From Echinarachnius parma (Eukaryota; Echinodermata; Echinoidea; Clypeasteroida; Echinarachniidae): a stretch of 64,000 nt of DNA. Within the stretch, counting starts at the first letter, position 1, and every line of letters begins with the position of its first letter. Where the stretch lies: the NCBI GenBank assembly GCA_037951105.1, contig JBAMJV010012234.1:1-64000 (forward strand). The letters run 5' to 3'. Below are positions 1,849 to 53,020 of the stretch, one piece after another. The notes under the pieces were generated by a model. The model saw nothing but the letters and a program-made list of their open reading frames with translations, made no database searches and was not told the origin of the DNA. The translations under genes and the position numbers were made by a program.

Positions 1849-1872
1849 ATTCACGTGAACAAAACAATGACC

Positions 1873-2592: not shown

Positions 2593-2854
2593 CTGTGAAT
2601 TAGGACAGAGTATATAGAAATTGCATTTTGTACTAGATTTGAAGATATGTGACCTTATTTACCCGTACGTCTGACTGTTGCTATCTTGTTATTGTTTGTT
2701 ATTGATTTTAGTATTTCATAATTGGTTTTCTATTATGCCAATATTTAAACATAATTGTTGAAAATTGCATTTATTGTTTTTGCTTTAGTAAATGTAGTAT
2801 TTAAACCTGTACCACATTATTTCATAAGAATTTATTTTTAAACAAATTTGTTGT

Positions 2855-4625: not shown

Positions 4626-4635
4626 ACATCTTCCC

Positions 4636-4700
4636 TTAAGACCAGTGGCGTAGCGAGGGTCAACGGATGGGGGGGGGGGGGGGGGGGGGGGGGGGTTGGA
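4636..4700. repeat. accagtggcgtagcg terminus plus long G tract
   Basis: The motif accagtggcgtagcga is followed by a G tract (about 4669-4695). The same terminus is at 47875-47886, where the opposite end is also present (ctacaccactgg at 48035-48046). It is likely one end of a dispersed MITE. Confidence 0.5.
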
Positions 4701-4897
4701 GGGGCACAACTGCGAGGTAGTGGAGCGATGGTGCATATCCTAGACAGTGATATTATGTGATACGTAGTTCAAGCTATGGAATCAAACATTTATAATGTAC
4801 GCATATTAAAAAGTGGAGGGAGAATCACCTCCACTTTCAAACGTATGGGGGGGGGGGGGGGGGGGGGAGGCATGTCCCCCCTCCCCGTCCCCCGGGT

Positions 4898-5302
4898 GCA
4901 TTACGTATTAAGAAAAAAGAATCGCCGTGGATAAATGATGATATTGTACAATTAATTCGTGATCGTAACAAATTAAAACAAAAGGCAAAACGATCGCAAA
5001 CATTAGATGATTGGAATGAATATAAAAGAGCTAGAAACAAGGTAACAGCTGAAATACGGAAAGCTAAACGTGAATATATACAAAGTATTATACAAACAAG
5101 TAATGGTCAGTCAGGCGATATATGGAAGTCTTTAAATTATGTGATGCCAAAGAAAAATAAATCGGACAAGATATTGGAAATAGAACGAGATGGTATTCGA
5201 TACACTGAGAAAAGAGCGATTGTGGACAATTTTAATGATTACTTTGTAAACATTGGAAAACAACTTCAGAGTGATGCTGGGTTAATTAATGATGATACTT
5301 AA
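4898..5302 (+). pseudogene. LINE ORF2 linker region, out of frame with RT
   Basis: This frame reads ALRIKKKESPWINDDI, a Lys/Arg-rich helix (KRARNKVTAEIRKAKREY), and FNDYFVNIGKQL, which is typical of the segment between endonuclease and RT in Jockey/CR1-type elements. It ends in TAA at 5300-5302. The downstream frame (LIQEEYYP, then the RT) resumes at 5299 in another phase, so a small indel has broken one long ORF. Confidence 0.8.
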
Positions 5303-6867: not shown

Positions 6868-6890
6868 TTTGCATATTTTTCCTTCTTTCT

Positions 6891-6892
<2 letters not shown>

Positions 6893-6930
<38 letters not shown>
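6893..6930. repeat. poly-T tract in LINE 3' region
   Basis: An uninterrupted T run soon after the RT stop codon, inside the LINE 3' untranslated region. Confidence 0.9.
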
Positions 6931-7619
6931 CGTGAGTTTGTTTGTTTTGTTTTTTGTTTTGTGTATACTAAATTGTGTAAAATATGTTGTTTTTTTATAT
7001 TTGTAATATGTAAATACTGTGTTTAATATTTTGTTATCTTGATGTATTGTTTTTATTTCAGGGACCGTCTGAAAAACAGTCTTTGGCTGAGTACGGTTCC
7101 CTGGTGAAATAAAATGAAAATAAAAAATAAATAAATTATGTGCATTCAATTTCGCCAATTTTGTTACCGCAGTTGTATTTAGCAGTTCAACATCGTTTTT
7201 TAGCATTATAATTCATATATTGATCATTCGGAAACATTTTGTTTGCATTCGATTTCAAACGTATTTCGATTCGAGTAAATTCGTGGTTACGTAGTACCGC
7301 CCTCCTGGAAATCCGTTGTCGCAATTGAATGCAAATAGTGTGGGTTTTTTTTAATTGAATGCTAAAAGTGGTAAATAACTTGATCGAAGAGCTAAATCGT
7401 ATGAACATAATGCAATTTTGAACCAACATTGCAAGCCCTCAGCTCAGTTTCATGAAACTGAATGAAACGAATGAAAAGCTTACGAAATTGGCCGAAAAAC
7501 ATTATAGAACATGTGATATGCCTAGGTCATAAATGCACTGGATGCCGCACAATATTTTTACCTACATTTCGGATAGGGATATCGTACGATGTCTGCAATA
7601 TATGCGTGTATTGGCAGTC

Positions 7620-7905
7620 CCGTAGCATAGGGGTGCGTTGGGTGCGTAACCCCCCCCCCCCCCCCCCCCCCTCCCCATTCAGAAAGGTCCACTTTTTATC
7701 GTTCTCGGTCTCGGGCAGCGATCGGTCCATTTGACATTTGACGACCCCATCTCCCTGCTTACACAACTAAAACAGTGGTCAAAATCAGCGACGGACCCCT
7801 CTCCTCCCCCCCCCCCCCCCCCCCACACTCACACTTACACGACTCAACCAGTGGTCTTGGTCCCGTTTTTGCAAATACGCACCCCCAACGCCCAAACCCA
7901 CCCCC
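7620..7905. repeat. poly-C dispersed repeat with (ggtgcgtt)-type terminus
   Basis: Contains gtgcgttgggtgcgtaac plus C tracts (about 7651-7671 and 7805-7824) and gaaaggtccactttttatcg. The same modules occur in reverse order and orientation near 30160-30250 (aaaaagtggacctttccg, G tract, cgcacccaacgcacccc), so this is a dispersed element, not a gene. Confidence 0.65.
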
Positions 7906-7949
7906 TTGAAAAATCCAGGCTACCGGCCTGAGCGGTCACATATTTTGTC

Positions 7950-8218
7950 TTGGGGTGGTTGTCTTGGGGGGCTATTGTCTTTGGGGGAGGGGGGGGGGGG
8001 GGGAATTGTCTTGGGGGGGGGGGGAATATTCAGGGGGGTAGTTGTCCGGGGGTATTTGACTGGAGGTAATCGTCCGGGTGGTAATTATCCGGGGGTAGTT
8101 GTCTTGGGGGTAGTTGTCTTGGGGGTAATTGCCTTGGGGGTAATTGTCTTGAGGGGTAATTGTCTTGGGGGGTAATTGTCTTGGGAGGGGGGGGGGGGTA
8201 GTTGTATTGGGGGGTAAT
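7950..8218. repeat. G-rich minisatellite, mirror of 4043-4625
   Basis: Tandem GGGGGTAATTGTCTT units, the reverse complement of the left array. It includes G tracts of 10-20 nt with quadruplex potential. Confidence 0.9.
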
Positions 8219-9253
8219 TTAAATGAATAAAGAGATGCTCAGTTTTTAATATTGTCAGGTAAAGCCTGGACCATAGTGCCTTTGCTTAGCTTTTTAGTGA
8301 ATCCCTCTGTTTCCAATAGGTATTTATTTATTTGTTCACATGATTGTAATATAGTATGTTTAATGTGTTGTAAGTAACAACACAATTGAACAAAACATTA
8401 AAAGCATTTATGAGAATATGGAAGATTATACAAAGCTGGCTTATCTAGGGTAAACTCATTTACCTGCACAAATCTTCTATATTGATGGAGGCAGATTAAT
8501 CAGCAGAAGAGCAATAATACGACTTTCGCTATGGCCTAATTGTATGGAAGAAAACTGGGTTCTACTCACCAAACGCTGAAATAAATATCCAAAGCGTTAT
8601 GATGCAGTGCTCCCGTGTCGTCATAATCGCAAACAGAATAGTTAATAGCCTAATCGGTTATATCCCAGATATTGTCAGCTCCGTAAATATAAGGCGTTCT
8701 TGTATGCGATACGTCCGGACATCAATGTGTATTAGTATATCATCGGAAAAGTAAGTCGAATAAGATTCACGTAAATGTAACTTTTAAGAAACCTTCCGAT
8801 GATCTTTGTTGAACATGTTGTCTCACTATACAGCTAACGAAGTATAGTTATGGTTTATATTCACGGAAACTTCGCATTTATTTGTATCTTGGTGTATTTA
8901 TCATCTTTTCTTAAATTTCCTAGTAGCTGTAAATATATCAGCTAAGTTATTTATTTGATATTTAAGTGCTATTGGTGCCCATATATTTCGTAGATGAAGT
9001 CTCATCTTACCTTTACAAAAAGTAAAGATATGGTTGTGAAAATTTGAGAGATTTACTACTAATTAAAACAAAATATTGCATTCGATGAAATTTAATTTAA
9101 TCTATGAGTACTCTTGAAGCACAATCAATGTTAAATGCAGTTAATGAATTACTGAAGTAACTACATCGATTAGGGCTGTGTGAGATAACATTAATAATTG
9201 CCTTTGGAAGTTTGATCTAGTAGGACCGTATGTTTCATGTTACCTCCCCCCTT

Positions 9254-16929: not shown

Positions 16930-16973
16930 ATGAAGAACCGCGAACACCGCTTTATTGCGCTTTTCAGTGTTTA
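16930..16973 (+). pseudogene. receptor copy 1, signal-peptide exon, out of frame
   Basis: It aligns with exon 1 of copy 2: atgaagaaccgcgaaca matches atgaagagccgggaaca, and the donor context gtgagtagacatc is identical. It is 44 nt where copy 2 has 55, so it ends in phase 2, while the next exon (19117) needs phase 1. Joined at this donor the frame would meet TAG at the junction. A weaker GT at 16967 would restore phase but leave too short a hydrophobic stretch for a signal peptide. Either this exon is dead, or copy 1 uses another first exon that I cannot see. Confidence 0.6.
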
Positions 16974-17124
16974 GTGAGTAGACATCGTGTTTTACGTTCT
17001 AATCAGGCCATTTTCCTATATTCTTCAGGTGTGAATTTGTATCCAGTTGTCATAGTGTGAAAAAAATTATGAATGGTGGGTAAAATGAGTAGTTTTGTAC
17101 GCAGTTGTGACTATCCAGTGGATA

Positions 17125-17299
17125 GTTAAAGAATCCGAACAGATGAATAGAAAATATCTTTATAACAATAGGGAAATGTGAAAAACAAAAACCTGTTCCA
17201 TGCTCGATTTCGGCAATACGAATACAACAAGATATGAAAGAATTTCTAGATTTCTAATTAAGTTATGTGGATTTGGACAATGTTACTAGATCTCTTTAA
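17125..17299 (+). mobile_element. family II MITE, 5'-deleted copy
   Basis: Contains gggaaatgtgaaaaacaaaa, aatacaacaagatatg and the end ggacaatgttactagatctc followed by tttaa. It matches the right half of 12401-12789. Confidence 0.65.
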
Positions 17300-18045
17300 G
17301 TATAATAATGAACAAAGTAGTCTTCCCAATCAGTTAATTTAAACCTTACTATACAGAAACAAGGTAAACCATTGTCAACTCAATGTGAAATATAAATGAC
17401 ACTGGAATATCTGCTTCAATGAAAACCTGCGTGTAATGATCATCTCTCTATATATAAACGATTTTATATTGATTCATTTCGGAAGGTTTTCTGACTTAAA
17501 GGGGACCACCAGGCAAAAAACAACACATAATTATATGTTTTGGTGCCGTTTGTGATATCAAATAGATACCCATCATTTTGCAAAGGGTTGTATTATTCAT
17601 AAACAATGCAATAAATTACCACCACTTACGGAACCACTATTATGTTGTGGTTCCGTACGCGCCAAACATTAGCGAATGCACCAAGTCTATTCACGCGTAC
17701 GTTTGGAAACAATAATATCCGGACGATTCGTTCGCTCTGCAAAAAGGAGGTAGTCTTCGTACATGCATACCCATGAACGCATGCTTTAGAATGGTGATGC
17801 GTTTTCCAATTTGTTATACTTGATGCATTTGTTAATTAAACTACACAGTATAATGCGCTATACAAATTTAATTTATTATTATTATTATTATATTTCCATT
17901 GTCAAGATATTTGTTTGTTTCGTGATGGACAAGAGAACTACCAACATAATATGAAGCATGTAAACAATTAATGCAATATTTTTCACTGAAGTTTCGATTT
18001 TGGTATCATACAAAATCAGTCTATCCTACTATAATTAAAATATTG

Positions 18046-18391
18046 TAGAGTCTAGATAAGTTGATTCAATTATCCTATGATTAGTGACCGGTTAAAACAG
18101 GGTGGCCCAAAAAACGGAACGGGGCACTTCCCAATATAAAGTAACAAAAGTATTATGTCCATCGGATAGGGTGTCTTTTCCAATGAAAAACGATACCAAG
18201 AACAGTCATTTTGGTCATTCTAGAGTCTAGATAAGTTGATTCAATTATCCTTTGATTAGTGACCGGTTAAAACAGGGTGGCCCAAAAAACGGAACGGGGC
18301 ACTTCCCAATATAAAGTAACAAAAGTGGTATGTCCATCGGATAGGGTGTCTTTTCCAATGAAAAACGATACCAAGAACAGTCATTTTGGTC
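18046..18391 (+). repeat. recent tandem duplication, period 175 bp
   Basis: Positions 18046-18216 and 18221-18391 are nearly identical (differences include cctatg/cctttg and attatg/ggtatg). Each contains an ACAGGGTGG element end, so the left arm of the element at 18272-18812 has been duplicated together with its flank. Confidence 0.9.
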
Positions 18392-18812
18392 GTGTAGTCT
18401 TTATTTTAGGGCGCTGTGAGTGACAGCATGTCAGGTTCCCATGTTTGTACATTTTTACCAAGTCAGTGCTTGATAAATCGCACTTATTGCCCGTCATAGT
18501 ATCAACAAGGAACAATACGCGCACCATTGTTAGTGTGCATTCAGCTGTGTGCCGAGAGAATGGGCACTGTTGTTCAATGCTATGACGGGCAAGTGCGATT
18601 CTTCAAGCACTGATTTGGTAAAAATTGACAAAAATGGAAACCTGACATGGTGTCACTAACAGCGCCCAAAAACAAAAACTACCCGTCCAAAATGACTGTC
18701 TTTGGTGTCGTTTTTTTTATTGGAAAAGACACCTTATCCAATGGACATACCAATCATGTTGTTAATATATTTTGGGAAGTGCCCCGTTCCGTGTTTTAGG
18801 GGCCACCCTGTA
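18272..18812. mobile_element. ACAGGGTGG foldback element with about 270-bp arms
   Basis: The left arm starts acagggtggcccaaaaaacg and the right arm ends ttaggggccaccctgta. Inverted matches continue inward: atgtccatcgga, aacgataccaagaacagtca, ccatgtcaggtt/aacctgacatgg, and tgcccgtcatag/ctatgacgggca. The arms almost meet near 18540. Non-coding, and possibly able to fold when transcribed. Confidence 0.8.
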
Positions 18813-18892
18813 TAGCTTCTGACTAATCGAGCAATGACAAGGGTTTCATAGGAACGTCCCCCATTCAAGAGTCTTCATGGCTCTGTTACGGT

Positions 18893-18945
18893 TGAGCACC
18901 GGTCTAGCAATCCGGAGGTCTCGGGTTCGATTCCCGGCGAAGCCC
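18893..18945 (+). pseudogene. partial tRNA-like sequence
   Basis: Shares gagcaccggtctagcaatcc with the tRNA-like repeat at 12309, and has the box B gggttcgattcccgg. The 5' third is degenerate (ctctgttacgg), so it is a fragment. Confidence 0.5.
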
Positions 18946-19116
18946 TTTTCCTGCTCATGTTCGATCATTTACACACTATTCCTAGTCAGTTTCCTCTGGA
19001 TACAATGATAATACAATACAGTCAGTCGTATGAAATGAAAAAATGACACATTGTTTTAACATGTTTAAGTCAATGTGCATAACTAGCATTGCACGTTCTA
19101 CTATCGAAATTGACAG

Positions 19117-19485
19117 GGAAATCATACCAACTTCTGCAAGATGAGTTAGAGATCGTCGACATTACAACGGGTCGTACCTACATCAATGGGACTCTTTACG
19201 CCATTTTCAATGAAAGCCACACCCTCACCTGCTCAGTTCTGACAACCTCCAAGCCTCCACCAAACATATTATGGTCGTCACCAGATGAAGATGCCGTAGT
19301 CATAATCGATGTCACAGACCAGGTCAATCGTCCGAGTGACATCAATCAAAACTTGACACTCTCATCGAGAACAGCAATACTGACTGCAGCCGCGTACGAT
19401 GATGCGAGCAAGAGGATCCTGTGTTCGGCTTGGCATTTTGGGCTAAGTCGGAGATTTTCGGTATTCGTTAACCTTGAGGTTGGAG
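19117..19485 (+). CDS. receptor copy 1, Ig-domain exon
   Basis: Acceptor ttgacag, donor gtaagc. Encodes GKSYQLLQDELEIVD, the first Ig cysteine in HTLTCSVL, the tryptophan in NILWSS, and the second cysteine in KRILCSAWHF. Several N-glycosylation sites (NGT, NES, NLT). It is one codon longer than copy 2 (an extra Ala before YDD). Confidence 0.85.
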
Positions 19486-22400
19486 GTAAGCATTTATATA
19501 TTTATAATCATTTATTGACAGGCTACAAGTCGGCGTATCATAAATGAAGGAATTTGAGAGCATTGATGAATTATTTGTGACATAGACTTTGGAATGGCTA
19601 CATAATTATTTATAGGTTTCTTACTTTATGTGTTTTTTCTTGCTTGATGTCATAAACAATCCATTATGATCTACCCAAGCCTCTCTTAAAATTAACCAAC
19701 ACACATTAATGACAGTCGATCACTCCTTATACAGTCAAACCTGTCAATGCGACCTCCTGTCTATAGCGACCACCTGCTCATAACGACCGCTCTCTGGTCC
19801 CCCCGTGAAAAACCATGTGTTAAGCGACCTGCGTAATGCGACCACCTGCCTAACGCGACCAGCGACCACCCTATTTGTGTCCAGACACACATATAAATCT
19901 GTGTATAGCGACCACAAAATTAGCGCTTGAGCGCCCAATGCATCAAATCTCTTGCCTCTGGTCGCTCAAGGCTCCAATTCTGAACATGTCGATGCATAAA
20001 ACAAGTTTTTAAAATGACAATGAACTTCAGACAAACCACGCTAAATTACCGACAAAAAGTGCTTCAACTCATGAACAAAGAATATTCAAGCTCTTCAGTA
20101 CCTGGTGCTGATACGGATATGCGTTGAACAAAGGCACTATACTACATCACAACATCACTAACAAACTTGAATAGCCGAGACGAGTTTTTCTCACTCTTTT
20201 TAATGATAATCCTTGCGCTCCTTGCATTTTTACTTCAGAATTATATAGAAAACTATACTGTGCATTAGCGTAGCTGATTCTGTCATGATGAAAAACATAA
20301 TAAATGGCACATTGACACATTTTGTAATTTCAATTTCACTAGGGTTAGATAATACAAACATTTAATATCATTTTAAATATAACGCCATTGATATATCATT
20401 TCAATTTTGTTGTGGTTATTCATGCAACAAATACTAAATGTAACTAACTATCGAAATGTGCGTGTACAGATGTCAATTAATTACACATGTGCATATAGTC
20501 ACGATATGCGACCATAAATTCAAAATGGCCGCCATCCTGTCTAATGCGACCAACTGTCTATAGCGACCGCTTTTCGCCGGTCCCTTGAGTGGTCGCTATA
20601 GACAGGTTTGACTGTACTTATAGTATAACATGTACCCCGAGCAACTTTTACATGAACCTTGGTTATGGTTGGAATATTACTTTCAAAATGCCCCTGGACC
20701 GGCTTTACACCACTGCATGAAACCTCTTCTATCATGATTGATGAATTTCCCTGAACCATTGTACTTCATATTGCATTATCTAATTTTATTTTCGTTCATC
20801 CCCATCGACTTAGAGTTACCTGGAACCCCAACCGCCCTCTCGATAGTGAAGTCATCTACAACCACTAACTCTCTTCTCCTCACGTGGATCCCCGGCTACT
20901 CTTACGGTTGGAATATGACTTTCACACTGACCTACTGCACTGAACCGACCCTAAACAAATGCAAGGAGGCCTCTGGAATTCAGCCTTCCTGGTTCGTCCT
21001 TGACAACCTGGCACCATCGACGCAGTATCGGATGGACATCCGAAGTGAGAGTGTCTTTGGATACAGTAACGCTACTAGACTCGTTGCATCGACAAAACGT
21101 AGGTATTTTTTAACTGATGTGTTGGTTTGTATGGTTACCATGACCGCAACCACATCGACATCATTCAGTAGACTGTCAGGAATGGCAGTGACTTTAGCCT
21201 GAGTTATGTCACACATTTCGTTGCTCTGACGGCACGTCATGAACTACCGACTACTTCGTCGCCTATGTATCATAACCCTTTTATTCAAAGTGATCCATTT
21301 AGTTCATATTCTTTTTCCAAAAGTGATATTTCAGAATTCATATAATATGACGAATTTACATAGCGCTTAATGCAAACAAGCCTCTAAGCGCTTTAGAAAA
21401 GGAAATTATAGTATACGAAGTAAAGAAATAGAGAGTGGTTGAGCTATGACTGATAATGTTGTTTGACGAGATGATTTTTTAGATTATCTTTGAATGAGTA
21501 AATTGAGGGAGAGTTCTTGACCCAGTTAGGCAGAACTGAAAAGAAATCTTAAATTTCTAATCAATTTTGTTTGAATTTAACAAAGTTTATGGATCACTTC
21601 AATCTTAATAATATCATGGCTATAGCTGAAAATGTCTTGTATCCGTCAAACTCCTGATAATGCTTCAGCCAGGTTCGCAGTATCACATGATATTAATGGG
21701 CGAGACTGTCTTTGATCATGTTAAAGGGGTAGTTCAGTTTTGGTATAGAGGGCGCTGCACAAAATAATTTTGCTGTGAGATAATGAACAACTGAGTGTGG
21801 AATTTGAAAGAGCATACAATGTTAATGACAGAATAAACTTTATTTGATCAAAATCGGTTCAGAAAGGGCTGAGATATCAATAAATATATCCGATCGGAAT
21901 AAATCTAGGCCCCAGATTTATTCGATGATTTATTTGTATTTTTTTTAATGCTTACAATTTTTCAAAAATTCTCCAAAGGGTTTTTTAAATAGGTGTTGAT
22001 GATCTCTTTATTTAATTCTTATTTCAACAAAACATCACATGCATACTTGTGTATGAGAACTGATTGAAACAAATGCTTTTTTTTTTACAGAGCCCCCTTT
22101 TGTGTTTTAATTGCTCTTTTTTAATAATAACAACCTTTTTACTTATTCGTTTGTAATTGTCTATACCTTTCGAGCATGATGGAGTTATAACTACAAGTTC
22201 TTAATGTTATTATGCAGGTTTTGGTTACTAAAGCTCATCCTTACCAGAACAGTACTACCCCTAGTGCTCCATTCACATTACAATATTTTTCCAAAAGTAA
22301 TATTTGAGACTAATAATAATAATATAAACGTTTATATAGCACAGCTATGATTTTATAATGTTCATTTGTATTAGACATCTTCAATGTATGATACTAACAT

Positions 22401-25400
22401 GCTGCGTTTGTGTTTATGGGGGTTTTTTTCAGCTCTGACTCCGACTGAGATCGGTAAGTTAAATGTGCTTTGAATAAAAATTAGTACAACATTTAAAAAC
22501 GTGTCAAAAGTTCATGCCGACGTACACATCTCAAGTGACCAGACATAGGTAAAGACTACGCCATCTTATGAGGTCAAATCCAAATTCATCAAGTATAGGT
22601 TTTCCCGCTCAATTTGACACTTTTTGTAATCGAATTCATTAAAGGGGCCCTGCAACCCAAATGCATGTTGACCTCTGTTCATCTGTATTAGTGTACACAT
22701 TCAATATTTGTAAACGGTTTGACCCAAATATGTTTTGTATATTTTTAAACATTTTATCATTTATTTGTCTTCATGTTGCTAAGCCCCACCTCCTAAAAAA
22801 CCGTCCAGAGCAAATTCTATGACCTGCAGTGACTGCGAAATTAACTTCCAATCATCAGTATGGGATGAGATTTAAACTTTTGCTACCTACATCATTATTA
22901 ATATTTGTGTTTGTTTTGTTGAGGGGGGGGGGGGGATACGTGCATAATTGGTTAGCAGTCCATGGTTAAGTTTCCATTATAATCCATACAAGGGTGGTAT
23001 TACCCAGTGCCTGCCTTAAAGGGATCTAGTAATCTAGAATTAAAATTTTATTTTGAGGATTTGGACAATGTTACTAAGTCCCTTTAATGGAGTAACCTGT
23101 CCTAAACCCATACCGGTAATGATTTTCTCATTTATTTCAGTCAGGGGACATATTCCTCATAGCTACGCCACTTGGCATGGTTAACTTGATATATAATTGG
23201 TCGTAGTTCGACGTTGTTAAATTTAGTTTATAGGGAAATATAATTTTTCTTTAAATTTTGGGCAATTTGTAAATACAAATGATCTGTTTCATCTTCAGTA
23301 AAGTCTATGTTTCTTGTTTTTGACCGATTAAAGGACAATGAAATCCAGACAAATTGTTGTATGCACTATAAGACATACTATAATGAATAGTTTCTGAAAA
23401 TTTGAGCACACAATCGGTCAAGAAATAAGAAAAATATGGCTCTTTGAAAAGAGCCATGTATTTCATCGAGTGACTCAAATTGGCAACGCACTCTGGCAAA
23501 GTTGTGGACAACTCCCCATACATTTTGTACACAAAATTTCAGTTTCGTTCAATTTTCTCAAAATGTATGTTTACCCTTCGTTCGAGTTCAACATATGTTT
23601 TGTAGAATGCTTTTTTATACATAAAATATCATGAGTCGGGGGAATGGAAAAATGTGACTATGAAGAAAACTGTAAAAATGGGAATATTTGTGTACAAAAC
23701 ATATGGGGAGTTGTCCACACACTTATCAGAGTGCGTTGCCAATTTGAGTTCCCCATAGGAATAAATGGACATCTTCAAAGAGCCGTAGTTTTCTTGTTTC
23801 TTACCCGATTATGCTCTAACTTTCAGAGATTATTCTTCTTAATCTCTTCAAGACTATGAAAGCAACATTTTGCTTGGGTTTCATTGCCCTTTAAGAGGTA
23901 TAAACTATAATATTTCTAAAGACAATTATATGTCCATGTATATTTTAAACGGACCGATCAGTCCTGGTCAAACCTAATTTTAGTAAATACAATTGTTGAG
24001 TTTTCATTAAAATCTAACACTCATAATTCAATGATGCCTGAATGGTAGAAAAAATCATACAAATAGGCTAAGTTACAGGGCCTTTTCATTATACACTGCT
24101 ATTAACACAAGAGGGCGCCGTTTAGACCCCTCAAGTTCCAACCATTTGTTATCAAATATGGGAATGTGATGGTTGTGAAAAACATGATTATAGAGATATC
24201 ATCAAAAACAATCATTTTACCAAAATCAATACAAACATATAGGGGATATCCGTAAAAAAGGGTAAAGAAAAACATTAGTATTGGTGTTCTCCCAATGACT
24301 AAACTCGGCCACTGATAGCTAAGGCCACGTATTGTGGAAAACACGCTTTGTATATTGTTTTAATCTTTTGTTTTTGCTTGTTTTTGTCAAATAATTTAGA
24401 GGGTCACGTACATCCTAGACCACCTCAAACATGTCGCCTATCCTTTCCCGAAAATGATATTAAACACAACGGGATTAAGCCCAAAAAGGGTATGTTTTCC
24501 TCCAATGTTTGACATAACCTTAAACGCAATTCCATGAGATGTCATGTTAATTAGGTGAAAACAAATATGTCATAAGTTTTCTTACCATGTACCATTGTCT
24601 TAGGTGTGTATGGTGTGTATAACAGTGACACTGGAGAAGTTGACATAGTCCGTAAAAACATCTCTACCGGACCAATACCAACCGGACTATGTTTTGTCCT
24701 AATGTTTGAAAAAGCCACAATCACGACCGATGAGGCACCCAGATCTGCCTGCAAATATGTAGGGCAGAGCATAGATATCCCCGTGGGGAGATCATGGAGG
24801 GACGCGATCATTGTCGGTTATGGGAACAGTGTGTATAGCGCGCCTTCGCCGGTGACACAAGAAAATGATGCGCCTGCTCATTCTGCGACTTCAACAGGTA
24901 TGCTGGCTCTCCATAATTATCAAGTCAAATATGTTTTATACACACAGCTTATTCAGATTTAATGCAACGCCGGTTTATACTATAAGCTTGATCACTTAAA
25001 GGTAGATTGTGTTGGTTGGTGTTAAATGAATAGTTAAAAACTTGGTAGAGAAAGAACTTGACTTACTTTTGACTTAAGCCGTCCACACCATCGCTGGCAT
25101 GTGTGATGGCCCCTGCTTCTTTTGGCCTTGGTCAGGGAGACAAGGTGTCTGTTGTTACAGTTTGTCTTTATACAGTCAATCAATCTCTTTGCTGGTCTTC
25201 CCCTTGGGCGTTTACCATGACTTTGTATTTTTCCACTGGGTAGAATGTGGGGGTATCTTTGGGGTTCAATCTATTTATATGTCCAAAATATCGAAGTCTT
25301 TTTGTGGCAACTCTGTCGATGATGGTCTCTTCCATTCGTATATGCGTGTTTCGTATCCTGTCAAGTGATTCGTCTGAGGCATGCCATCTTAAAGGTGTGG

Positions 25401-41967: not shown

Positions 41968-42022
41968 ATGAAGAGCCGGGAACAGTGCATCATTACCCTT
42001 TGGCTATTTATGTCATTGTTTG
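41968..42022 (+). CDS. receptor copy 2, exon 1 (signal peptide)
   Basis: MKSREQ followed by the hydrophobic core CIITLWLFMSLF; donor gtgagt; ends phase 1. The ATG is the only one that gives a leader and an open join to the Ig exon. Confidence 0.8.
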
Positions 42023-45000
42023 GTGAGTAGACATCCATTGTTCCCCTCTACATTTAGGCCATGGGGAGGGGGCACTTGATACTTTTAATCATCTTCATCA
42101 CATAGGCGTTGGGGCAAATTTTCTCAGTGGGGGTGGGTGTGTGAAGTCTCTCGCCCAAATGATGATCTTTCCTGCATTTTTACCTTACAAGCAAACCGAG
42201 ACAAATTATTTATGAAAATCGGTTCATATTTATTTCAGACTCATTTAGTTCAAACATACTATGAGCAAAATAGGATTCTCTTCAACTATGAACAGATAAA
42301 AGAAAACATTTGCCAATGGTAAACTATGAATAGCTTCATGTAATCGCCATGATTATTGTTGTAGACGTGTAGCAAGATTGGTAGAGCGCGCGCTTTCCGA
42401 TAGTGAGATCCCGAGTTCGAACCCTGTATAGGCCCACTGCGTTTGTCCTTCAGCAAGACAATTAATCCACAATTGCTGCTCTCTACCCAGGTATATAAAT
42501 GGGTATAAATTATGGTCGGGTGTTAATTAGCCTGTAGCGACATCATCAGTGGCAGCTCGGCTAGTATACTCCCCAGGGCGTTGATAAATTACGCAATATT
42601 ACGCATTGTGTTGGTTTGAAATGTACCTGATGGCCATGGGTAATAATACTTTAAATAGTCATTTAAGCGCAGAAGAGTATTATATTTATAGTAGCTGCAC
42701 TATATAAATGTTCATATTATTATTATCATTATTATCAGCTTGTTCATGCAGAATGTCTGGTTAAACACAATCTTGAAAAAAATATGTAGATGTACAATGC
42801 ATATAAATATGATTTCTAAAATGAACGCATTGTCTAAGTAAAACATAACATATCTTTGTAGAAAGACCACCTTTTCATAATGCCAACTTTATCCCGTTTA
42901 TCTATGAAGCAATATAATGATCATGCAACTTGGTTTGAAAATTAATTATCATCCGGGCTGTCGGTGTTGTCATGTGAGCTGTCCTGCATTCATAAATTAA
43001 CTCTTTGTCAGCTATATTGGGAGTAATTTAGTTATCATAATTTGCTTCATTAGCTATTTAAGATTCATGTATGTTCCCATCGTCAATCAATTGACCGTAA
43101 GATTAATCGTGAATCTTTATTTTCCTACAAATAGATAGAACATTGGTTATTTGGTCTTGATTTTCATTGCAGGTGTTTGTTTGGGGCTCAAAATAGTTGA
43201 ATTATAGGCTAGCTAGAAACAACAAATAAGCTAAAAAAAACATAACGAATAACCTGGCTCTTCCATTTTTAGTTGCTGTATTATTATTCCAAATGGTTTT
43301 TATCGAATAACTAAAAAACAATGTTTAATCATCACAAATATATGATTTATGGGCAAAATATGAATTGAATGACCTTATTTGGCAATTATGGCACCCGGGC
43401 CCCGGCCTTAATAGAGTTAAAACAAATGCAAAACATAACAGCAAGTAAACGAACCCAACTAATTATCATGGTTGAGATCATCGAAAAACACATCTGACAA
43501 TTTATAATCAGTTAGACACAACAATGAAATGTATGAAATTAAATTAAAATGTCCAAACACAAAGTGAAATTTAACATTGAATCTCGTAGAAACACGCTTT
43601 CTTTGCTCTTTTTATTTATGCTAAATAAAAAATAAAAACATGACTGCTAATAACTTATTTTAAATTATACTATTGACCTATTATCTATTATAAACATTCG
43701 CAGGGAAATCAAACCAACTTGTGCAAGATGAGTTAGAGATCGTCGACAACGCAACGGGTCGTACCTACAGCAATGGGACTCTTTACGCCATTTTCAATGA
43801 AAACCACACCCTCACTTGCTCAATTCTGACATCCTCCAAGCCTCTACCAAACATATCATGGTCATCACTAGCTGGAGATGCCGTGGTCATACTCGATGTC
43901 ACAGACCAGATCAATCGTCGGAGTGACATCGACCGAAATTTGACACTCTCATCGAGAACAGCAACGCTGACTGCAGCGTACGATGACGCGAGCAAGAGGA
44001 TCCTGTGTTCGGCTTGGCACTTTAGGCTAAGTCGGATGCTTTCAGCATTTGTTTACTTTGAGGTTGGAGGTAAGCATTTATATATTGTATATATTATATA
44101 TATTGAGAGGCTAAGGGGCGTATCATTACAGAAGGAAATTGATGAACATTCGAGACATAATAAGGGAAATGTGAATGGCATAGGTCCGCGCACCAGGATA
44201 AACGATTTTGAATGGTGATAGTAGATTGGCCTACTGAGTTATTTGGAAGTTTCTTATTTTATGTGTTTTTCTCTTATTTTATGTCAAATCCAATCCATTA
44301 CGACATACATGAGACTCTCTAATGAATTAAATAATACACATTTAAGACATTCGGTCACTCCTTATAGTATAACCTGCTCCCCGAGCAACTTTTACATGAA
44401 CCCTGGACATGGTTGGAATATTACTTTCAAACTGTCCTGGACCGTATTTACACCACTGCATGAAACCTCTACTATTCTACTTGATGAAATTCCCTGAACT
44501 ATTTTACTTCATATTTCATTATACAATTTTAATTTTCGTTCATCCCCATCGACTTAGAATTACCTGGAACCCCAACCGCCCCCTCGATAGTCAAGTCATC
44601 TACAACCACTAACTCTCTCCTCATCACGTGGATCCCCGGCTACTCTTACGGTTGGAATATGACGTTCACACTGACCTACTGCACTGAACAGGCCCTAAAC
44701 ATTTGCAAGGAAGCTTCTGGAATTCAGCCTTCCTGGTTCGTCATTGACAACCTAGCACCATCGACGCAGTATCGGGTGGACCTCCGAAGTGAGAATGTCT
44801 TTGGATACAGTAACGCTACTCGACTCGTTGTATCGACAAAACGTAGGTATTTTCTTTCCTTCAAACTAATCAAATATTATTATGTATCATCATTAACCAT
44901 TGTTAACGCGGCAATGAACTTTGAAGCTGGCATATGCATTGAAACACCCTTGCTGTATTTAAACATGTATTCGCGCTTACAGCAGTTGACCGACAATACC

Positions 45001-46796
45001 TTCAGCTACAGTAACGCCACACCATACGCTGTTCTGACCGCGCGTAGATATTTCTGTCCGATGGCATCGTTATCTGATATACTCCTTTGATCTACAGATG
45101 GTAATTAGAAAATACCATGTTATTTCCTTAAAACTCTTGATAAAGGTTCGCCACCTTCAACCATTCAGTACAGTATCTGGTGGCCCCTTGAAAAGACTTT
45201 GTTTGGATATAGTAACGCTACTCGACTCGTTGCGTCGACCAAACGTGGGTATTTCAAGATCTTCTGAAGGTAGCTTTTCATAAACCTCGTGTATGGATGT
45301 AGTGAAGATGGGGTGATAGGGACAGAAGCCCATTACTATCTCTCCCCATTCAAAATGAAAATCAAATAATTTTGTCTTTGAATGAAGACTGTTAATGGCA
45401 TGTTCATAAAATTACATATGTTTTAATTGTCTTTTGTTGTGATGTTCAATTCCATATTATAGTATCAAAGACGCTTCATTCTATACTCTCCGAAAGTACC
45501 TATGCCCAAAAGGTCATCACCGTGTGGGAGCTATACCTCCACACCCATCTCCACTCCCACTGTGCGGTTTCACTCCTTGCCCCACACCCCCGACCCAAAT
45601 TTCTGATCTTTATGTCATGTGTAAATCTAGCTTGGAGAGCATTCTTTTTATAAACTTATTTTCAGCAATCTGAAGAAAAACTATTACCTATCATTTAAAG
45701 GAGTATCCCACTGAGCGGCGAACGTTTGCGAATATAGCAAATTTGGGATTTCGCCAGGATTCGTTAAAGGTTGCAAAAGGTTCGTTAACGGTCGCAAACG
45801 GTTGCAAGAAAATTCGCAAACGGTTTTAATTGTCGCAAACAGTTTTTCTTGTCGCAAAGAAATTTTGGACATGTTCAAAATTTCTTTGCGAATTTATTTT
45901 TTCGCAAACAGTTGCAAACGTTCGCAAACGGTTTTAAGACGGTGTCGCTAACGTTCACCAATGCTAGCGATTACATGACCATATGGTTCCTAAATGCAAT
46001 CGACCCATTGAGCGGCGAATGCTTACGAACATTTGCGAATTTTCGATTCGCCAACTTTTCTGACATATGTTGGCAAAATTCAGTGTGGCAGAGGCAAAAC
46101 CCTGATTTTCGCTAACATTCGCTAACATTCGTCAGAAAAGTTGGCGAATCCAAAATGTGCAAAGTTCGATAACGTTCGCAAACGTTCGCCTCTCAGTGGG
46201 ATAGCCCCTTTAAGATTGCCTGCATTCCATTGATAATGTGCATATTATGTTTTGCTACGAAAAATGTACGTTTACATTGTTGCATATGTGCAGTGTGCTT
46301 ATTATTTACTGTTATTGAACCAAATCTTGCACAATCTACGAATCTTCCCCATTCTATTTACTGTTTTGTCAAAAGAGTTAAAAACATGTAACAATAACTT
46401 GCATAATTTGTATTATGTTATATATCATGTTATAATATAGCAAATTACCTTCTCCTTTTTTTGTAACATAAAGCACCTCTATTTCATAATAAAGTATGCT
46501 GTTTTGTATTCATGGCTGTTCGTTCTGTTTTTCCTCTCTGTAGCTTTGGCTCCGAGTGAGATTGGTAAGTTTGATATAGCAATGAAAAATAAACTGTATT
46601 TGCATTATTATGGTTTTAAAATTATTCAAATTAATATGTGACCGGGTCTATAAGTGGGTTACCGTCTAGTTAGATCGTTAGATTAATTTTTATTATTTAT
46701 ACCAAGACATGTATCCTTATTGGATCCAATAATTCATAAATGATCTTCTGGGGCAAGACAGCCTGGTGAGCTGGTTGCGTGTTTGTGTGTGTGTTT

Positions 46797-46871
<75 letters not shown>

Positions 46872-49800
46872 GTGTATGCGTGTATGTGTGTGTGTGTGTA
46901 TGTATGTGTGTGTGTATGTGTATGTATGTGTGTATGTGTGTATGTATGTATTTTGAAGGGAAATAAATGTGCGTGCATGTGTTTGTTTGTTTGTGTGTGT
47001 GTGTATATAGCTTTACCAGTTCTGAGGCAAAATGTGGTAAAATGCCTGCCATAATGGAGCAACCTGTATACAAAATCGTCACGTTCTCCTTTTAATTAAA
47101 TAATTATTCATTTCTTATTGTCAAAAGTGGTAAATAGCTATGCCACTTAGCATGGTTATCCATAATTGGAGTTTCATTACATTTACACATTGATGTTACA
47201 CTAAGTAAGGGTTACTACGAAACTGTTTTACCAGTTGACTTCCAACTAAGACTTGGTGATCCAATCGAACGATTCTCTAAACAAACTTTTAAGAGAGCTT
47301 TACTCGAAGATTATCGGTTAAGCTTAGACAAGTCAAATGATGCATACACATTGTTTTGCCATTGTTGATTTGTTTAGTTTAATTATTTAATTTGATTGTG
47401 TTTGATATCATTTCAATTTGATCCAGGGGTTTCCGCACTTTACCAAATGTCCGCTCATTCAACTGAAGTGACACGTGCCGAGATCTCTCCAGAACCCCTT
47501 TCGTCGGGTGTTTGCTTCAAGCTGACTTATTTCACCGGCTCATCAATGTCGGATGAAACCAATGTGACCACGGCAACTGATTGTGTCCAACCAGACGACA
47601 CCCTGGCCCTTGATTCGGGGAGGTCGTGGCAGGAAACCGGTCTTGTGGCATGTCTCCATGACACCTGTAGCGACCCGTCCCCTCTTGAATGGAAATTCAC
47701 AAACGTTTTCCAAGGTGAGCACAATACCATAAGGGTCCCGTTAGCTTCGGTCCCCGTTAAAGTGGAAGTTCGGTCTGGTTTCGGTTTGGATTCGGTTTGG
47801 CGGTGTGACTGCTACATTACAATCGATTGTATCATGTCAGTCCCTGAACATGATAAAAGAGGTAAAGAAATGAAGTGGCGTAGCGCCATGGGCATGGGGG
47901 GGGGGGGGCAAATTCCCCAGATAATTTGATAAAACAATACACATAATTATAGAGATAAAATCATTTTTGAAAAAAATAAAGAAACACGTAAGGTGTTCCC
48001 CCTAATAATGTGTGTGCCCCCTCTCCGACCACGCTACACCACTGGAAACAAGACTTTCGCTTCATACACGAAGTCGTTTGTTAAATTTGCATTAAATAAA
48101 TTCCTACTAATTACACACGTACATTAGTAAAACTATACAAATTACCGAGGATTCTCACGTTCGCATATCATAGATATTTCACCACGTTAAAGGGATAGTT
48201 GAGTTCTGGTAAGGAGAGTACAGTTTTAGTGAAACTGAATTTTAGTAACCAAAACCTGCATCATTACATTACAAACTAATAGTTATAACTAGAAAGGAAC
48301 ACAAAATTACAAATGACGTAGTAAAGATCATGTTATCATTCAAAAAGAGCCGTTAAAACGTAAGAGGGCGCTCTCTAAACACTCAGCGGTTTCAACCATT
48401 TTGAATTAAATATTGTGCATGTGATGCTTTGTTGAAATAGTGATTAGATAGAGAAATAACCAACAACTATTTAAATACCTATTTTGTAACTTTTTGAAAA
48501 GAGGAAGCATTTTTTTGAATTTTTAACGGCTGGTTCAAAATTCTCTAATAAACCCGGGGCCCCGGGTTTATTGCAAATTGTTATATTTATGGATATTTCA
48601 GCCGTTTCTGAACCGATTTTGATCAAACAAAGATGATTTTATTGTTTAAATATTATGCTCTTTCAAATTTTACACTCAGTTTTTCATTACCTCACAAAAC
48701 AATTAAGTAGTCTAGCGCCCTCTCTACCAAAACTCAACTTTCCCTTTAATTGTTCTGACCTTCTTATTAGATTTATAAACATAATGAAAGCATGGCAAGT
48801 GTAATACGGACATTTCAAAATTGTATGTTTTTATAATTGGGGGAATTAAAAGATACCAAATACAAAGTGATCCCTAGATCCTTAGTATTTGATATCATAT
48901 CTATACACTAAACAGATAACAAATCATACCGTTTATAATAATGATATAACTAGTTCGTCTTTATGACTTAAAGGGACTTAGTAACATTGTCCAAATCCTC
49001 AAAATAAAATTTTTAATCTAGCGGTACCCTTATATTTTGTTGTATTCGTATTAACAATAAAATCATGGGACAGGTTTCTGTTTTTCAAATTTCCCTTTCG
49101 TTACAAAGATATGTATGATGAAGTATTCAGATAAAAAAAAACTCCGGGCGAGTTTTTCTTCAGTGTACAAAGTGAGTGCAGTGAGTTACTGAATATCACT
49201 TTGCATTTTCGCTCATTACTTGGCCATACAATGTCCATTTGACTTGAAATTTCACACAATACCCTGTGGACATATGAGATAACAACAACATACATTGCAT
49301 CAACCATTCATCACTTTTTGCACATGTCAACAAATTTACTGGATCCCTTTAAATAGGTTTCTTATTATAATTTATATTATCTCCATAGATCGGACCCTTA
49401 TGACATATCTAGTTGCGTCATGTGTAGTCTTCTTCTTGATCGTGATCAGTATCGTTGTATGCGTATGCATCTGTCTCATGAAGAAGCGTAAGTTCATCTC
49501 ATTGTTCATTTATAATAATCAGTATAATACATTTCTGAACAGATGAATAATTTCCTAATCAATTGAAATATATATAACAAAACGTGAGTTGCTTCATTTG
49601 TGTCGGCTTTTTATGTTGGTCTTTAAAAAACTACAATTGTCTGATTTTTTTTAGACTTGATTTTCTCAAAATAATCTTCGTTTTAATGAAGCCAATAGCA
49701 GTACTAGTACAGTATAGTTTACGACATTCTTTACATTAGGCATGTTAAATAAATTGGTTACTAGGTTAACAATCATAATTTTATTTTCATTATACAAGTT

Positions 49801-51126
49801 CGACTGGAAATTTGAAAAAGAATTACTTTATTTGAAATCTTCCATGTTACGCATGTTGTGATTCCTTAGGTACAAGGTCGCTTGATATCAATAAGGAAAC
49901 CAACGACTTGAACATTCGTGAGCTTCCTCTGCTCGAAGACCAAGTGGTTGACAACGGGACATCCCGTAACAACGATGACTACTCTTATCCATCGGATCAC
50001 CATGGCAACCGCACTAACCCGTCTAATGTTCATGTCAGCAACACTTGCCCGATCAGTCGCGATAGGATCAGCACTAAGACAGGGAGTTTGCATGACAAGT
50101 ACGCTAAGCCGTGGAAATCCCGTGGCAACAACGCTAACCCGTCGGGTAACCCGGATAATGACGCCTTCAATATGGATCAATACACTAGCCTGACTGCATA
50201 CAGCGCTAAGTCACCGAGTTGTCATGGTAACGGCGCTAAGAAATTGAGTTACCATGGAAACAACGCTACTGTGGCCCTGGATGGCGATGGTACTGCCGAG
50301 GATGGGCTGGCGACGTACACTAACTGCCGTGTGTCTTGCACGGATAATGCTCCTCCGAGTGATGGTACAGACCCGTTTAAAGAGGTAATAGTTGGTGTGC
50401 TTGGAGTTGATCCTAATATTCCTCCCCTTTTTATTTTATTTTTTCGGGGGGGGGGGGTAAATTATTTCACTATACTACTATGAATAACCACATAACCAAT
50501 TTATAACCAATATATTCTTCACATTCCTCTTGTTCATCCCTTTCTCAAACGTCTTGTGATTGGTCAATTTGTTTAAGCGTCTCATTCATCTCCTCTCTCT
50601 ATAATTTCTGTCCGTGCACTTATAAGAAACAAGCAACTCATGTTGCTATCCTTTTAAAGGTGTTTATTACCGACCTACAACAATTCAAGTACACATTTTG
50701 TCAAGCCTAATATTATTGATAACCACCTGTAAGCGCTCTACCTTGATATAAAGGGTGTGTTTAAACAAATCTTCTTTCGCCTATGGTCTGCAGCGCTCTT
50801 GATAACTTGTTAAAGATTAGCTTGAACACCTTCATACAGGATTAACAACGCCGATTATCGCTTGAAAAGGTGTAAATAAACCATTTATGTCCATAAAGCT
50901 ACATTATACAGTACAATAAAACAATGTGAAAATCCATGTATTTATAATGACTCTCCTTTTGGTCTCTCTATTTCAGTTAATTGAGGACGACGCCTACGAC
51001 GACACGGCCTTGGAATTCCCAGATCCACCCGACTTCCTCAGGCTAGGACAACCGACACAGTTCAATGCGTATGAGATCAACCTTCTCTCAGGAGGGGAAT
51101 TCGCCCTCGGCTCGACCAGGCTGTAG
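41968..51126 (+). CDS. receptor copy 2: Ig-FN3-FN3-like single-pass receptor with long tail (complete gene model)
   Basis: Exons 41968-42022, 43704-44069, 44558-44842, 46544-46564, 47427-47714, 49389-49487, 49870-50384 and 50977-51126 join to 1779 nt, 592 codons plus TAG. Every intron is GT-AG, and every junction is phase 1 except the last (phase 0). Protein: signal peptide 1-18; Ig domain with C57, W71, C120; FN3 domain 141-235; linker 236-242; second FN3-like domain 243-338; membrane span about 345-369; basic stop-transfer MKKR; cytoplasmic tail 370-592. The tail has tyrosines at 409, 411, 449, 476, 482, 499, 521, 550 and 575. Likely a plasma-membrane adhesion or immune-type receptor signalling through phosphotyrosine. 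Ligand and exact family are unknown, and I assign no symbol. Confidence 0.85.
42366..42740 (+). mobile_element. tRNA-derived SINE in intron 1
   Basis: The head (42366-42437) has a box A-like tagcaagattggtagagcg and box B gagttcgaaccctg. A conserved body follows (ctctacccaggtatataaat, gggttgataaatt-like segment) and then a tail gcactatataaatgttcata with ATT repeats, as in LINE-mobilised SINEs. Absent from the equivalent intron of copy 1. Confidence 0.75.
42741..43703. other. intron 1 remainder, nothing recognised
   Basis: AT-rich intronic sequence before the Ig exon; no repeat family identified. Confidence 0.4.
43704..44069 (+). CDS. receptor copy 2, exon 2 (Ig domain)
   Basis: 366 nt, phase 1-1. 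GKSNQLVQDELEIVD, HTLTC (C57), NISWS (W71), RILCSAWHF (C120). Five N-glycosylation sequons: N34, N42, N52, N68, N97. The C to C spacing of 63 residues fits a small Ig fold. Confidence 0.9.
44343..44500 (+). pseudogene. intronic FN3 relic of receptor copy 2
   Basis: SNFYMNPGHGWNITFKLSW and a following stop (TGA after LLDEIP). Homologous to relics in copies 1 and 3; resembles the FN3 strand GYSYGWNMTFTL. Confidence 0.5.
44558..44842 (+). CDS. receptor copy 2, exon 3 (FN3 domain)
   Basis: 285 nt, phase 1-1, with the FN3 tryptophan in LITWIPGYSYGWNM, the tyrosine of STQYRVDL and the terminal GYSNATRLVVST. Acceptor gacttag, donor gtaggt. Confidence 0.9.
44984..45245 (+). pseudogene. two FN3 end fragments in intron 3
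   Basis: TFSYSNATPYAVLTARR (about 44998-45050) and a second copy near 45200-45245 (ggatatagtaacgctactcg) repeat the last strand of the FN3 exon including the donor-like cgtag/cgtgg. They indicate past tandem duplication of the FN3 exon end. Confidence 0.6.
45695..46212. mobile_element. TTAA-bounded MITE, family III (GAGCGGCGAACG)
   Basis: Ends ttaaaggagtatcccactga and ctcagtgggatagccccttt followed by aa. Dense internal inverted motifs gcgaacgttcgc/gttgcaaacg, and an inner sub-terminus ccattgagcggcgaatgc at 46006, suggest a composite or nested copy. Confidence 0.8.
46544..46564 (+). CDS. receptor copy 2, exon 4 (21-nt microexon)
   Basis: Acceptor ctctgtag, donor gtaagt, phase 1-1, encoding linker P-L-A-P-S-E-I-G. 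Found by comparison with copy 1. Confidence 0.8.
46782..47008. repeat. (TG)n microsatellite
   Basis: About 220 bp of TG with TATG interruptions toward the right. Long open frames on both strands here are artefacts of the repeat. Confidence 0.95.
47427..47714 (+). CDS. receptor copy 2, exon 5 (second FN3-like domain)
   Basis: 288 nt, phase 1-1. Encodes GVSALYQMSAHSTEV, SGVCFKLTYFTG, LDSGRSWQETGLVAC. Four cysteines suggest disulfides not seen in the copy 1 domain. The FN3 assignment is inferred from strand pattern and position. Confidence 0.85.
47874..48049. mobile_element. small MITE with AGTGGCGTAGC ends and G tract
   Basis: Left aagtggcgtagcgcc and right gctacaccactgg are inverted. Contains an 11-13 nt G run. 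Confidence 0.55.
48187..48749 (-). mobile_element. TTAA MITE family I, copy F
   Basis: Starts ttaaagggatagttgagttc, ends gccctctctaccaaaactca. Same sub-type as copy E. Confidence 0.85.
48968..49352 (-). mobile_element. TTAA MITE family II, reverse copy
   Basis: ttaaagggacttagtaacat on the left, ttactggatccctttaa on the right. Ends 36 bp before the membrane exon of copy 2, so it forms most of the region where an intron branch point is expected. Confidence 0.8.
49389..49487 (+). CDS. receptor copy 2, exon 6 (transmembrane)
   Basis: 99 nt, phase 1-1. TYLVASCVVFFLIVISIVV then CVCICLMKKR. Juxtamembrane cysteines (C363, C365, C367) may be palmitoylated. Confidence 0.85.
49870..50384 (+). CDS. receptor copy 2, exon 7 (cytoplasmic tail)
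   Basis: 515 nt, starts phase 1, ends phase 0 at donor gtaata. Low-hydrophobicity Asn/Gly/Ser-rich tail. Possible SH2-type sites: DQYTSL at 474-479 and TYTNC at 520-524 (Y-x-N). A degenerate repeat HGNRTNP / RGNNANP / HGNGAKK / HGNNATV recurs four times, with matching DNA (catggcaac...gctaa). Confidence 0.85.
50385..50976 (+). other. intron 7, with possible retained-intron end
   Basis: Read-through from exon 7 stays open to a stop at about 50481-50483 (VIVGVLGVDPNIPPLF and a short G-tract tail). AATAAA-like acaataaaaca lies at about 50911. Intron retention could give an alternative tail end lacking exon 8. Confidence 0.35.
50977..51126 (+). CDS. receptor copy 2, exon 8 (C-terminal tail)
   Basis: Acceptor ctatttcag, phase 0, LIEDDAYDDTALEFPDPPDF and the end FALGSTRL, then TAG. 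Acidic, with Y550 and Y575. Seven decayed copies of the second half of this exon follow. Confidence 0.8.
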   Translation, partial: LIEDDAYDDTALEFPDPPDFLRLGQPTQFNAYEINLLSGGEFALGSTRL

Positions 51127-53020
51127 ACATGGTAGATGTTCGGATTACTGACCTGCATTATCTTGATCTCGAAGTTTGTAACATATCGTGCCCAAAAATC
51201 GGATCAAGGGTTCGGCCGACCTCTGGTCCACCAGACGTCCTGATGATCGGACAACCTACACAGTTCAATGCGTATTAAATCAACCTTCTCTCATGTGGTG
51301 AATTCGCCCGCGGCTCCACTAGGGTCCAGATGCTCGGAAAACTGATCTGCCTTCTCTTGATCTTGAAGATTGTATAATACTTGATCTTGAATATGGCATT
51401 CTACTTGTCCTTAGCAGCCCTACATGTATGCCCATACATGTACAGGGTTCGTCCTATGACCCACCAGACTTCATTAGGCTAGGACAACCCGTACAGTTCA
51501 ATGCGTATGCAATCAACCTTTTCTCAGGAGGGGAATTCGCCCTTGGCTCTACCAGGCTGTAGACATGGTAGATGTTCGGATTACTGACCTGCATTCTCTT
51601 GATATCGAGGTTTGTATAAACATATCGTGCCTGATAATCGGATCGAGGGTTCGGACGACCTCTGATCCACCAGACTTCCTGATGATCGGACAACCTACAC
51701 AGTTCAATGCATATGAAATCAACCTTCTCCCAGGCGGAGTATTCGCCCTTGCTCTACCAGGCTCTAGATGTTCTGATTACTGACCTACATTCTCTTGACT
51801 TGATGATTATATAATACTTGAAGTGATCCATTAACTTGATATTTCGCAAAGAAAGTAAGGGTTGGGACTTCAATCATATAACAATGTCACTGTAAGTTTC
51901 TTGAGAATGATATGTGAGAATTTCAAAGAAAAGGAATACAGTTAACCTAGTGAGAAAATCAGGGTTTGATTTAATCCCGATCGTTTGCGTGAAGTATCCG
52001 AATTCGGATACTATGGACAATTGAGTATCCGAATTCAGATACTCGTGGCTACGGTCGTATACCGTTTATAGACGCTCTTAATTTAAATTCAATCTTAAAT
52101 ATATCCATGATTATGGAGACATTTGAAAAAATCAAAACCCCATATCATTCTTCTGTTATCATAAGCCAAATAACGACGTACAAGAGAAGTGGTGATATTG
52201 CTTGAAATTGTACAAATTTAATGTAAAAGTAAAAGTCCGACCTCTGATCCACCAGATATCTGGGCAATCTGACAACTTGCACAGTTCAATGCGTATGAGA
52301 TCAACCTTCTTTCATCAGGAGAATTCGCCCTCGGCTCTATCATGCTTTAGATGCTCGGAAAAGATGCATTCGCTTGATCTCGAAGATTGTATAATATTTA
52401 ATTTATCAGCCAGATAGTCGGACCAAGGGTACGCCCAAGCATTAATCCACCGGGTATCAGGGCAAACTGACAACTTGCACAGTTCAGTGCGTTTGATATC
52501 TATCTTCTATCAGGCGTAGAATTTACCCTCGGCTCCACTAGACTGTAGATGCTCGGCGGTGAGCATGGTGAGGTAGCTGTTGGGCACGGGAGCGTGGGGA
52601 TCGGGGGGCAATGGTAAATCCCCACTGTCTCCTTATTCCTAATTCCCTCATTGTGAAATCTTTTATAACCTCTAGTTGTACTTTTTTTTATCAGGCATTT
52701 GTATGGCCCGCCTGATTTCATTACGCTAGGACAACCTGTACAGTAGGTTCAATGCGTTTGATATCAACCTTCTGTCAGATGAAGAATTCACCTCCGGTAC
52801 CACCAAGCTATAGATACTCAAAGAGCAAAGAGCAAGATAGAAGAGGAAGAAGTATTTTTGGCCCTCCCCTAATACTTTTACATTATTGATGACTGTCTTA
52901 CGTGTACCTATGTATATAGCCCGGCAGATATCTATTTATACAGACTATCACTACCGGCACAGTTCAAATCAGTATGAGATCAACCTTCTCCCAGGCGGAA
53001 ATTCGCCCTTGGCGCAAGGT
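51127..53020 (+). repeat. array of decayed copies of receptor exon 8
   Basis: At least seven copies of the DPPDFLRLGQPTQFNAYEIN region, near 51219, 51448, 51658, 52241, 52440, 52700 and 52961. Landmarks are ccaccagac, cacagttcaatgcgtat, atcaaccttct and gaattcgccc. Intervals of 200-230 bp also include a shared spacer (tgttcggattactgacctgc). Copy at 51219 has TAA in the tyrosine codon context; others have frameshifts. Copies at 51448 and 51658 keep most of the reading frame. Confidence 0.85.
51993..52047. repeat. gagtatccgaattcggatac palindromes
   Basis: Two adjacent imperfect palindromes centred on ccgaattcgg and ccgaattcag, within the exon-8 array. Confidence 0.7.

Follow-up and report, generated by a model that had tools for sequence, protein, structure and literature searches.

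A predicted immunoglobulin-superfamily recognition receptor in an unstable gene cluster of Echinarachnius parma

The focal gene of the Echinarachnius parma stretch analysed here (the window: 64,000 nucleotides, C12210:1-64000 in a genome assembly of 1.2 Gb in 14790 contigs) is one of a small, unstable cluster of receptor genes. Comparison with its relatives indicates that it probably encodes a working type I transmembrane recognition receptor of the immunoglobulin superfamily (IgSF), the outer domain of which has been diversified, a reading to which we give a probability of about 0.55.

Structure of the focal gene and its predicted protein

The gene lies on the plus strand and its eight exons sum to 1779 nt, or 593 codons including the stop, with consistent phases. 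All seven introns are bounded by GT-AG, in phases 1,1,1,1,1,1,0, and exons 2 to 6 are thus each of phase 1-1, such that skipping any single one preserves the frame. Exact recomputation reproduces the exon borders, codon total and absence of phase conflict put forward in a sequence-only reading of this DNA, and chance can be discounted as the source of the open frames by three further complete copies: copy A (C12881:14220-24640), copy B (C12881:40375-51335) and g14018 (C14018:26468-17013). All four genes, the focal one included, keep the eight exons, splice dinucleotides and frame without an internal stop.

Exon 1 (41968..42022), present in all four complete copies, carries the start codon and a leader, judged by eye to be a signal peptide. 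It is followed by a C2-type Ig domain in exon 2 (43704..44069) and an FN3 domain with an additional cysteine pair in exon 3 (44558..44842), both supported by Pfam, the copies and alignment; by a 21-nt micro-exon, exon 4 (46544..46564), supported by the gene model, the copies and like-sized counterparts in relatives; and by an orphan domain in exon 5 (47427..47714), delimited from the copies and alignment to a wider family. Protein features and the copies place the membrane span in exon 6 (49389..49487) and, together with self-comparison, a cytoplasmic tail that consists in part of internal repeats in exon 7 (49870..50384); exon 8 (50977..51126) encodes the tail end, an STRL C-terminus and the stop, on the evidence of gene model, protein features and copies. 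The model is weakest at the micro-exon. Equal-length counterparts flanked by AG and GTAAGT occur in copy A, in a chimeric relative in the window (copy2, described below) and on contigs C11268 and C8803, with alignment scores of 108, 44, 33 and 34, respectively, against best-of-30-shuffle scores of 31, 34, 29 and 34; the C8803 counterpart, which only equals its best shuffle, is supported by borders, length and position.

Intron 3 contains two partial duplicates from the 3' end of exon 3 (44993-45053 and 45194-45254). Exon 7 contains imperfect direct repeats of 44 and 68 nt, and some of the tail tyrosines may therefore have arisen through repeat duplication. After the stop codon, self-comparison reveals about seven degenerate plus-strand duplicates of the 3' portion of exon 8 (51228..53014), two of which have low dN relative to dS (0.07 and 0.08 versus 0.34 and 0.73; p 1.4e-4 for the second), as constraint would produce. 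A role as alternative last exons was considered and rejected, as their best alignments begin inside exon 8 without an acceptor and there are stops in other copies. We read the duplicates as debris, despite the low dN in two.

The predicted protein comprises, in order, a hydrophobic N-terminal leader, a C2-type Ig domain, one FN3 domain, the orphan domain, a single strong membrane span and a tail of 223 residues; eight N-glycosylation sequons precede the span. In Pfam the focal protein scores just below the curated cut-offs (fn3 21.9 bits, cut-off 25; C2-set_2 19.2 bits, cut-off 21), and close copies score above them (fn3 27.1 bits in exon 3 of copy2; C2-set_2 22.5 and 28.8), as does the C8803 relative (fn3 42.9 bits). 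Exon 2 residues C38, W52 and C101 are invariant in all seven aligned sequences. The core cysteine pair and tryptophan, with C2-set_2 above cut-off in close copies, assign the predicted protein to the IgSF, and exon 3 makes it an FN3-containing receptor, predicted to have at least one such domain. Exon 5 finds no match in Pfam, nor in the PDB as a profile. It is homologous to exon 5 of the wider family at 20-23% identity in an alignment of five sequences, across which C29, C52, RSW and S-PSP are invariant; fold prediction gave models too poor for use both here (pLDDT 61) and for exon 2 (pLDDT 50).

The tail has nine tyrosines in 223 residues (4.0%), including one pYxN-type site (YTNC) and one YxxL (YTSL). 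YTNC fits the GRB2-type pYxN consensus, and the C-terminal STRL fits the class-I PDZ consensus, paralleled by the DTRL end of CFTR. When the nine tyrosine contexts were compared by eye with the consensus ([SIVL]xYxx[IVL], or paired YxxL/I), no ITIM and no ITAM pair was found in the tail, only the single YTSL. The full focal protein has no kinase domain match in Pfam, unlike a Tie-like receptor tyrosine kinase. Its PDB matches are weak (Robo3, E 0.022; Tie2, E 0.058; as a profile, SYG-2 is best at E 0.014) and all are to adhesion and guidance receptors; its Pfam matches are to generic Ig and fn3 only.

The sequence-only reading had proposed an adhesion or immune-type surface receptor not obviously equal to any named family, with an Ig cysteine pair, FN3 motifs, a membrane span and a long tyrosine-rich tail. 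The cysteine pair (C38 and C101), the span and the 223-residue tail are borne out, and as far as Pfam and PDB were compared, no named family emerges as its equal. The surface-receptor assignment agrees with the IgSF layout, the generic Pfam matches and the weak adhesion and guidance matches, but two of its details do not stand: FN3 is recognisable in exon 3 but not in exon 5, so the plural was too generous, and at 4.0% tyrosine the tail was overstated as tyrosine-rich. The same reading suggested a lineage-specific receptor family; the family does prove to be multi-copy in its own genome, the one animal genome covered here.

Complete, broken and chimeric relatives

Outside exon 2, dN/dS among the complete copies is 0.37-0.46 (focal-A, A-B and focal-g14018 comparisons), and these ratios indicate that the receptor body is under constraint. 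All nine tail tyrosines are conserved among the copies, which carries little weight because exon 7 is 87-100% identical to that of the focal gene.

The window also contains two broken or chimeric relatives that the sequence-only reading had not recorded. On the plus strand, copy2 (16930..24896) has an exon 1 with an 11-nt deletion (16930-16973), exon 2 (19119-19484), exon 3 (20816-21097), a like-sized counterpart of the micro-exon (about 22433-22453) and exon 5 (24606-24896). It is chimeric, focal-type exons 2 and 3 being joined to an exon 5 of wider-family type that is 69% identical to C8803 and 26% to focal exon 5. A broken minus-strand copy (1176..8624) has exon 1 at 8571-8624, exon 2 at about 2246-2590, with a 5-nt insertion at its end, and exon 3 at 1176-1457. 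Open frames with reverse-transcriptase domains (Pfam) lie at 5296-6867 (+), between exons 1 and 2 of this broken copy, and at 30491-32218 (-) and 57119-58540 (-). A repeat some 550 bp long is dispersed over both strands of the window in at least six copies (2852-3383, 21721-22262, 36042-36584, 39272-39848, 48187-48749, in focal intron 5, and 60825-61374), and near-perfect tandem duplications with periods of 175 and 190 bp are found at 18042-18391 and 26723-27104.

Contig C14018 runs colinear with window positions 23943-35262 (97.2%) and 36578-42356 (93.9%), and g14018 therefore occupies the place of the focal gene; in exons 2 and 3, however, it is almost the same as copy A on C12881. To the right of the focal gene, 42 kb are common to C12210 and C12881 at 99.8% (C12881 was compared up to 90000), and the two contigs could be allelic or stem from a very recent duplication. 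These arrangements imply unequal exchange, or an assembly that combines more than two chromosomes. Three differing contigs around a single locus suggest that the DNA came from more than one animal or that the assembly is faulty.

Beyond the three cluster contigs, whole-genome comparison, in which only the best candidates were scored so that counts are lower bounds, gives at least 17 exon-2-like matches. On at least 14 contigs among these an exon-3-like match follows in the same orientation, and in at least 13 of these 14 a V-set-like exon lies upstream, although in C13664 it is split and has a stop. C8803 and C11268, which were read further, both have V-set, C2, FN3 and exon-5-like frames, followed in C8803 by a membrane-span frame and then a tyrosine-bearing frame. 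No V-set exon was found in the examined parts of the three cluster contigs, and among the best candidates scored, matches to tail exons 7 and 8 are confined to those contigs. From this, the focal cluster appears to be a V-less branch, distinct in its tail and related to a V-set/C2/FN3 family, that retains the micro-exon and the orphan domain. In the same assembly, a mitochondrial COX1 contig reads TGA as Trp, and AAA as Asn, AGA as Ser and ATA as Ile at sites taken to be conserved, which is the echinoderm code. On the same strand, COX1 is immediately preceded by the large-subunit rRNA, and tRNA-Arg lies downstream. This gene order agrees with that of sea urchins or sea cucumbers, and starfish are rejected because of their inversion.

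Divergence of the Ig exon

Coding differences between the focal gene and copy B fall almost entirely in exon 2 (37 of 40), with three in exons 1 and 6 and none in exons 3, 4, 5, 7 and 8. Over 42100-50400, a stretch of our own choosing from which a GT repeat (46779-46999) and an insertion edge (47690-47780) are omitted, exon 2 differs at 37/366 positions (10%), compared with 0.96% elsewhere (Fisher p 6e-23); the coding count is independent of this choice. Per 100 nt, differences number 0-6 in 42000-43799, rise to 11, 17 and 14 in 43800-44099, fall to 6 and 6 in 44100-44299 and then to 0-3 in 44300-50400, again setting the repeat and insertion edge aside. Exon 2 is not the sole diverged stretch, because the flank left of 41300 is diverged as well: between the focal contig and C12881 there are 5-16 differences per 100 nt in 40200-41299 and 0-6 in 41300-42199, and the two contigs cease to align before about 40170.

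The part of exon 2 diverged from copy B spans 43809..44069 on the plus strand, with a conversion-like signal at 43889-43976. At 43704-43808 the focal gene and B differ at only 1/105 positions, and at 43809-43900 B is closer to A (3/92) than to the focal gene (10/92). Within 43704-44300, all ten sites uniting the focal gene and copy2 against A, B and g14018 fall in 43889-43976, and none of the 27 sites uniting the focal gene and B against the other three lies before 44020. Nearest-relative relationships within the exon thus switch over about 90 bp, as expected of gene conversion. A simple transfer is disfavoured because B differs from A at 12/100 positions in 43901-44000, two sites in the tract unite B with the focal gene and copy2 against A, and B has private sites. 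No sampled donor fits the tract, and what fits best is a putative short conversion tract with either B or the focal gene as recipient and a copy outside those sampled as source.

Positive selection on the Ig exon is not statistically supported: exon-2 dN/dS ranges from 0.45 (A-B) to 0.88 (focal-g14018), values not significantly higher than in the remaining exons (p 0.13 and 0.24).

Recognition, alternative explanations and known systems

A constrained body joined to a diverged outer domain suggests recognition of a variable partner. The outer Ig domain would bind this partner, either microbial or a self/allogeneic marker, and exchange between related copies would renew the domain with the remainder held constant. 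Binding could then be signalled through phosphorylation of tail tyrosines, YTNC being the candidate GRB2-type site, and the STRL end may anchor the receptor to a PDZ protein. On this reading the receptor may serve immunity or allorecognition.

The divergence of the Ig exon can be accounted for differently. The gene could encode an ordinary cell-adhesion or guidance receptor, with cluster instability incidental and the Ig-exon difference a chance conversion that has no part in recognition. The generic Ig/FN3 layout, nearest solved relatives in adhesion and guidance, an island seen in a single contig pair and the lack of a significant rise in exon-2 dN/dS all speak for this, and conversion tracts arise neutrally among tandem copies, where gene conversion can homogenise as well as diversify. 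Broken copies, chimeric exon sets and rapid rearrangement are nevertheless unusual in conserved adhesion genes, and there is also a wider multi-copy family; we regard an ordinary receptor as possible, though distinctly less probable than a recognition receptor. It is more doubtful that the gene is real and the island an artefact, with consensus or polishing having mixed related reads or contigs having been mis-joined. Such an error might be expected where three contigs differ in arrangement and a diploid should give two, where C12210 and C12881 agree at 99.8% over 42 kb, and where near-identical copies invite read mixing. The B stretch, however, is not the same as any assembled copy (it differs from A at 3/92 and 12/100 positions), and its intact frame, splice sites and cysteines are something that simple read mixing would not guarantee. 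The two broken relatives and nearby mobile elements might also denote a decaying cluster, with the focal gene a non-functional remnant of recent date; this seems very improbable, because all four complete copies are free of stops and, exon 2 apart, dN is well below dS.

The predicted receptor has partial counterparts elsewhere. Nephrin/SYG/Kirrel-type receptors share the C2-set-like Ig, single span and long tail (the SYG-2 profile match, although the best, is very weak), and nephrins have an FN3 close to the membrane as in the focal protein, but the latter has far fewer domains, the orphan exon-5 domain and an unstable cluster. The V-C2 layout of Nectin/CADM/CD80-type receptors resembles the start of the wider family, with its V-set and C2-set_2 domains, except that FN3 and the orphan domain replace further C2 domains and no V-set exon is detected in the examined parts of the focal cluster contigs. 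A variable outer Ig domain and broken copies are also features of the Alr allorecognition receptors of Hydractinia. By description, those too are clustered IgSF receptor genes; the focal gene differs in its C2-type Ig, true FN3 and orphan domain, and its outer domain is of C2-set_2 type where Alr has a V-set-like outermost domain. The Alr family is described as comprising 41 IgSF genes, their domains being of V-set and I-set type (PMC11999971). Among echinoderms, the focal cluster resembles sea urchin SpTransformer (Sp185/333), described as a clustered, duplicating and diversifying gene family (PMC13428168). SpTransformer proteins are immune effectors, whereas the focal protein is a predicted membrane receptor. 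They are not known to have Ig or FN3 domains.

A bolder version of the recognition reading, which we consider unlikely, is that the cluster is a polymorphic echinoderm self/non-self locus, in which receptors trade short stretches of the outer Ig domain and individuals differ on a constant signalling body. Among the papers that literature searches listed, no title or displayed abstract concerns an Ig/FN3 family of this kind in echinoderms. In the available text of PMC9763293, echinoderm allorecognition comprises sea star allograft rejection, sea urchin mixed-coelomocyte cytotoxicity and sea star coelomocyte rejection, and echinoderm histocompatibility genes figure only as assumptions taken from other animals. 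Were the cluster such a locus, its members would be candidate genes for the rejection of grafts and cells by echinoderms.
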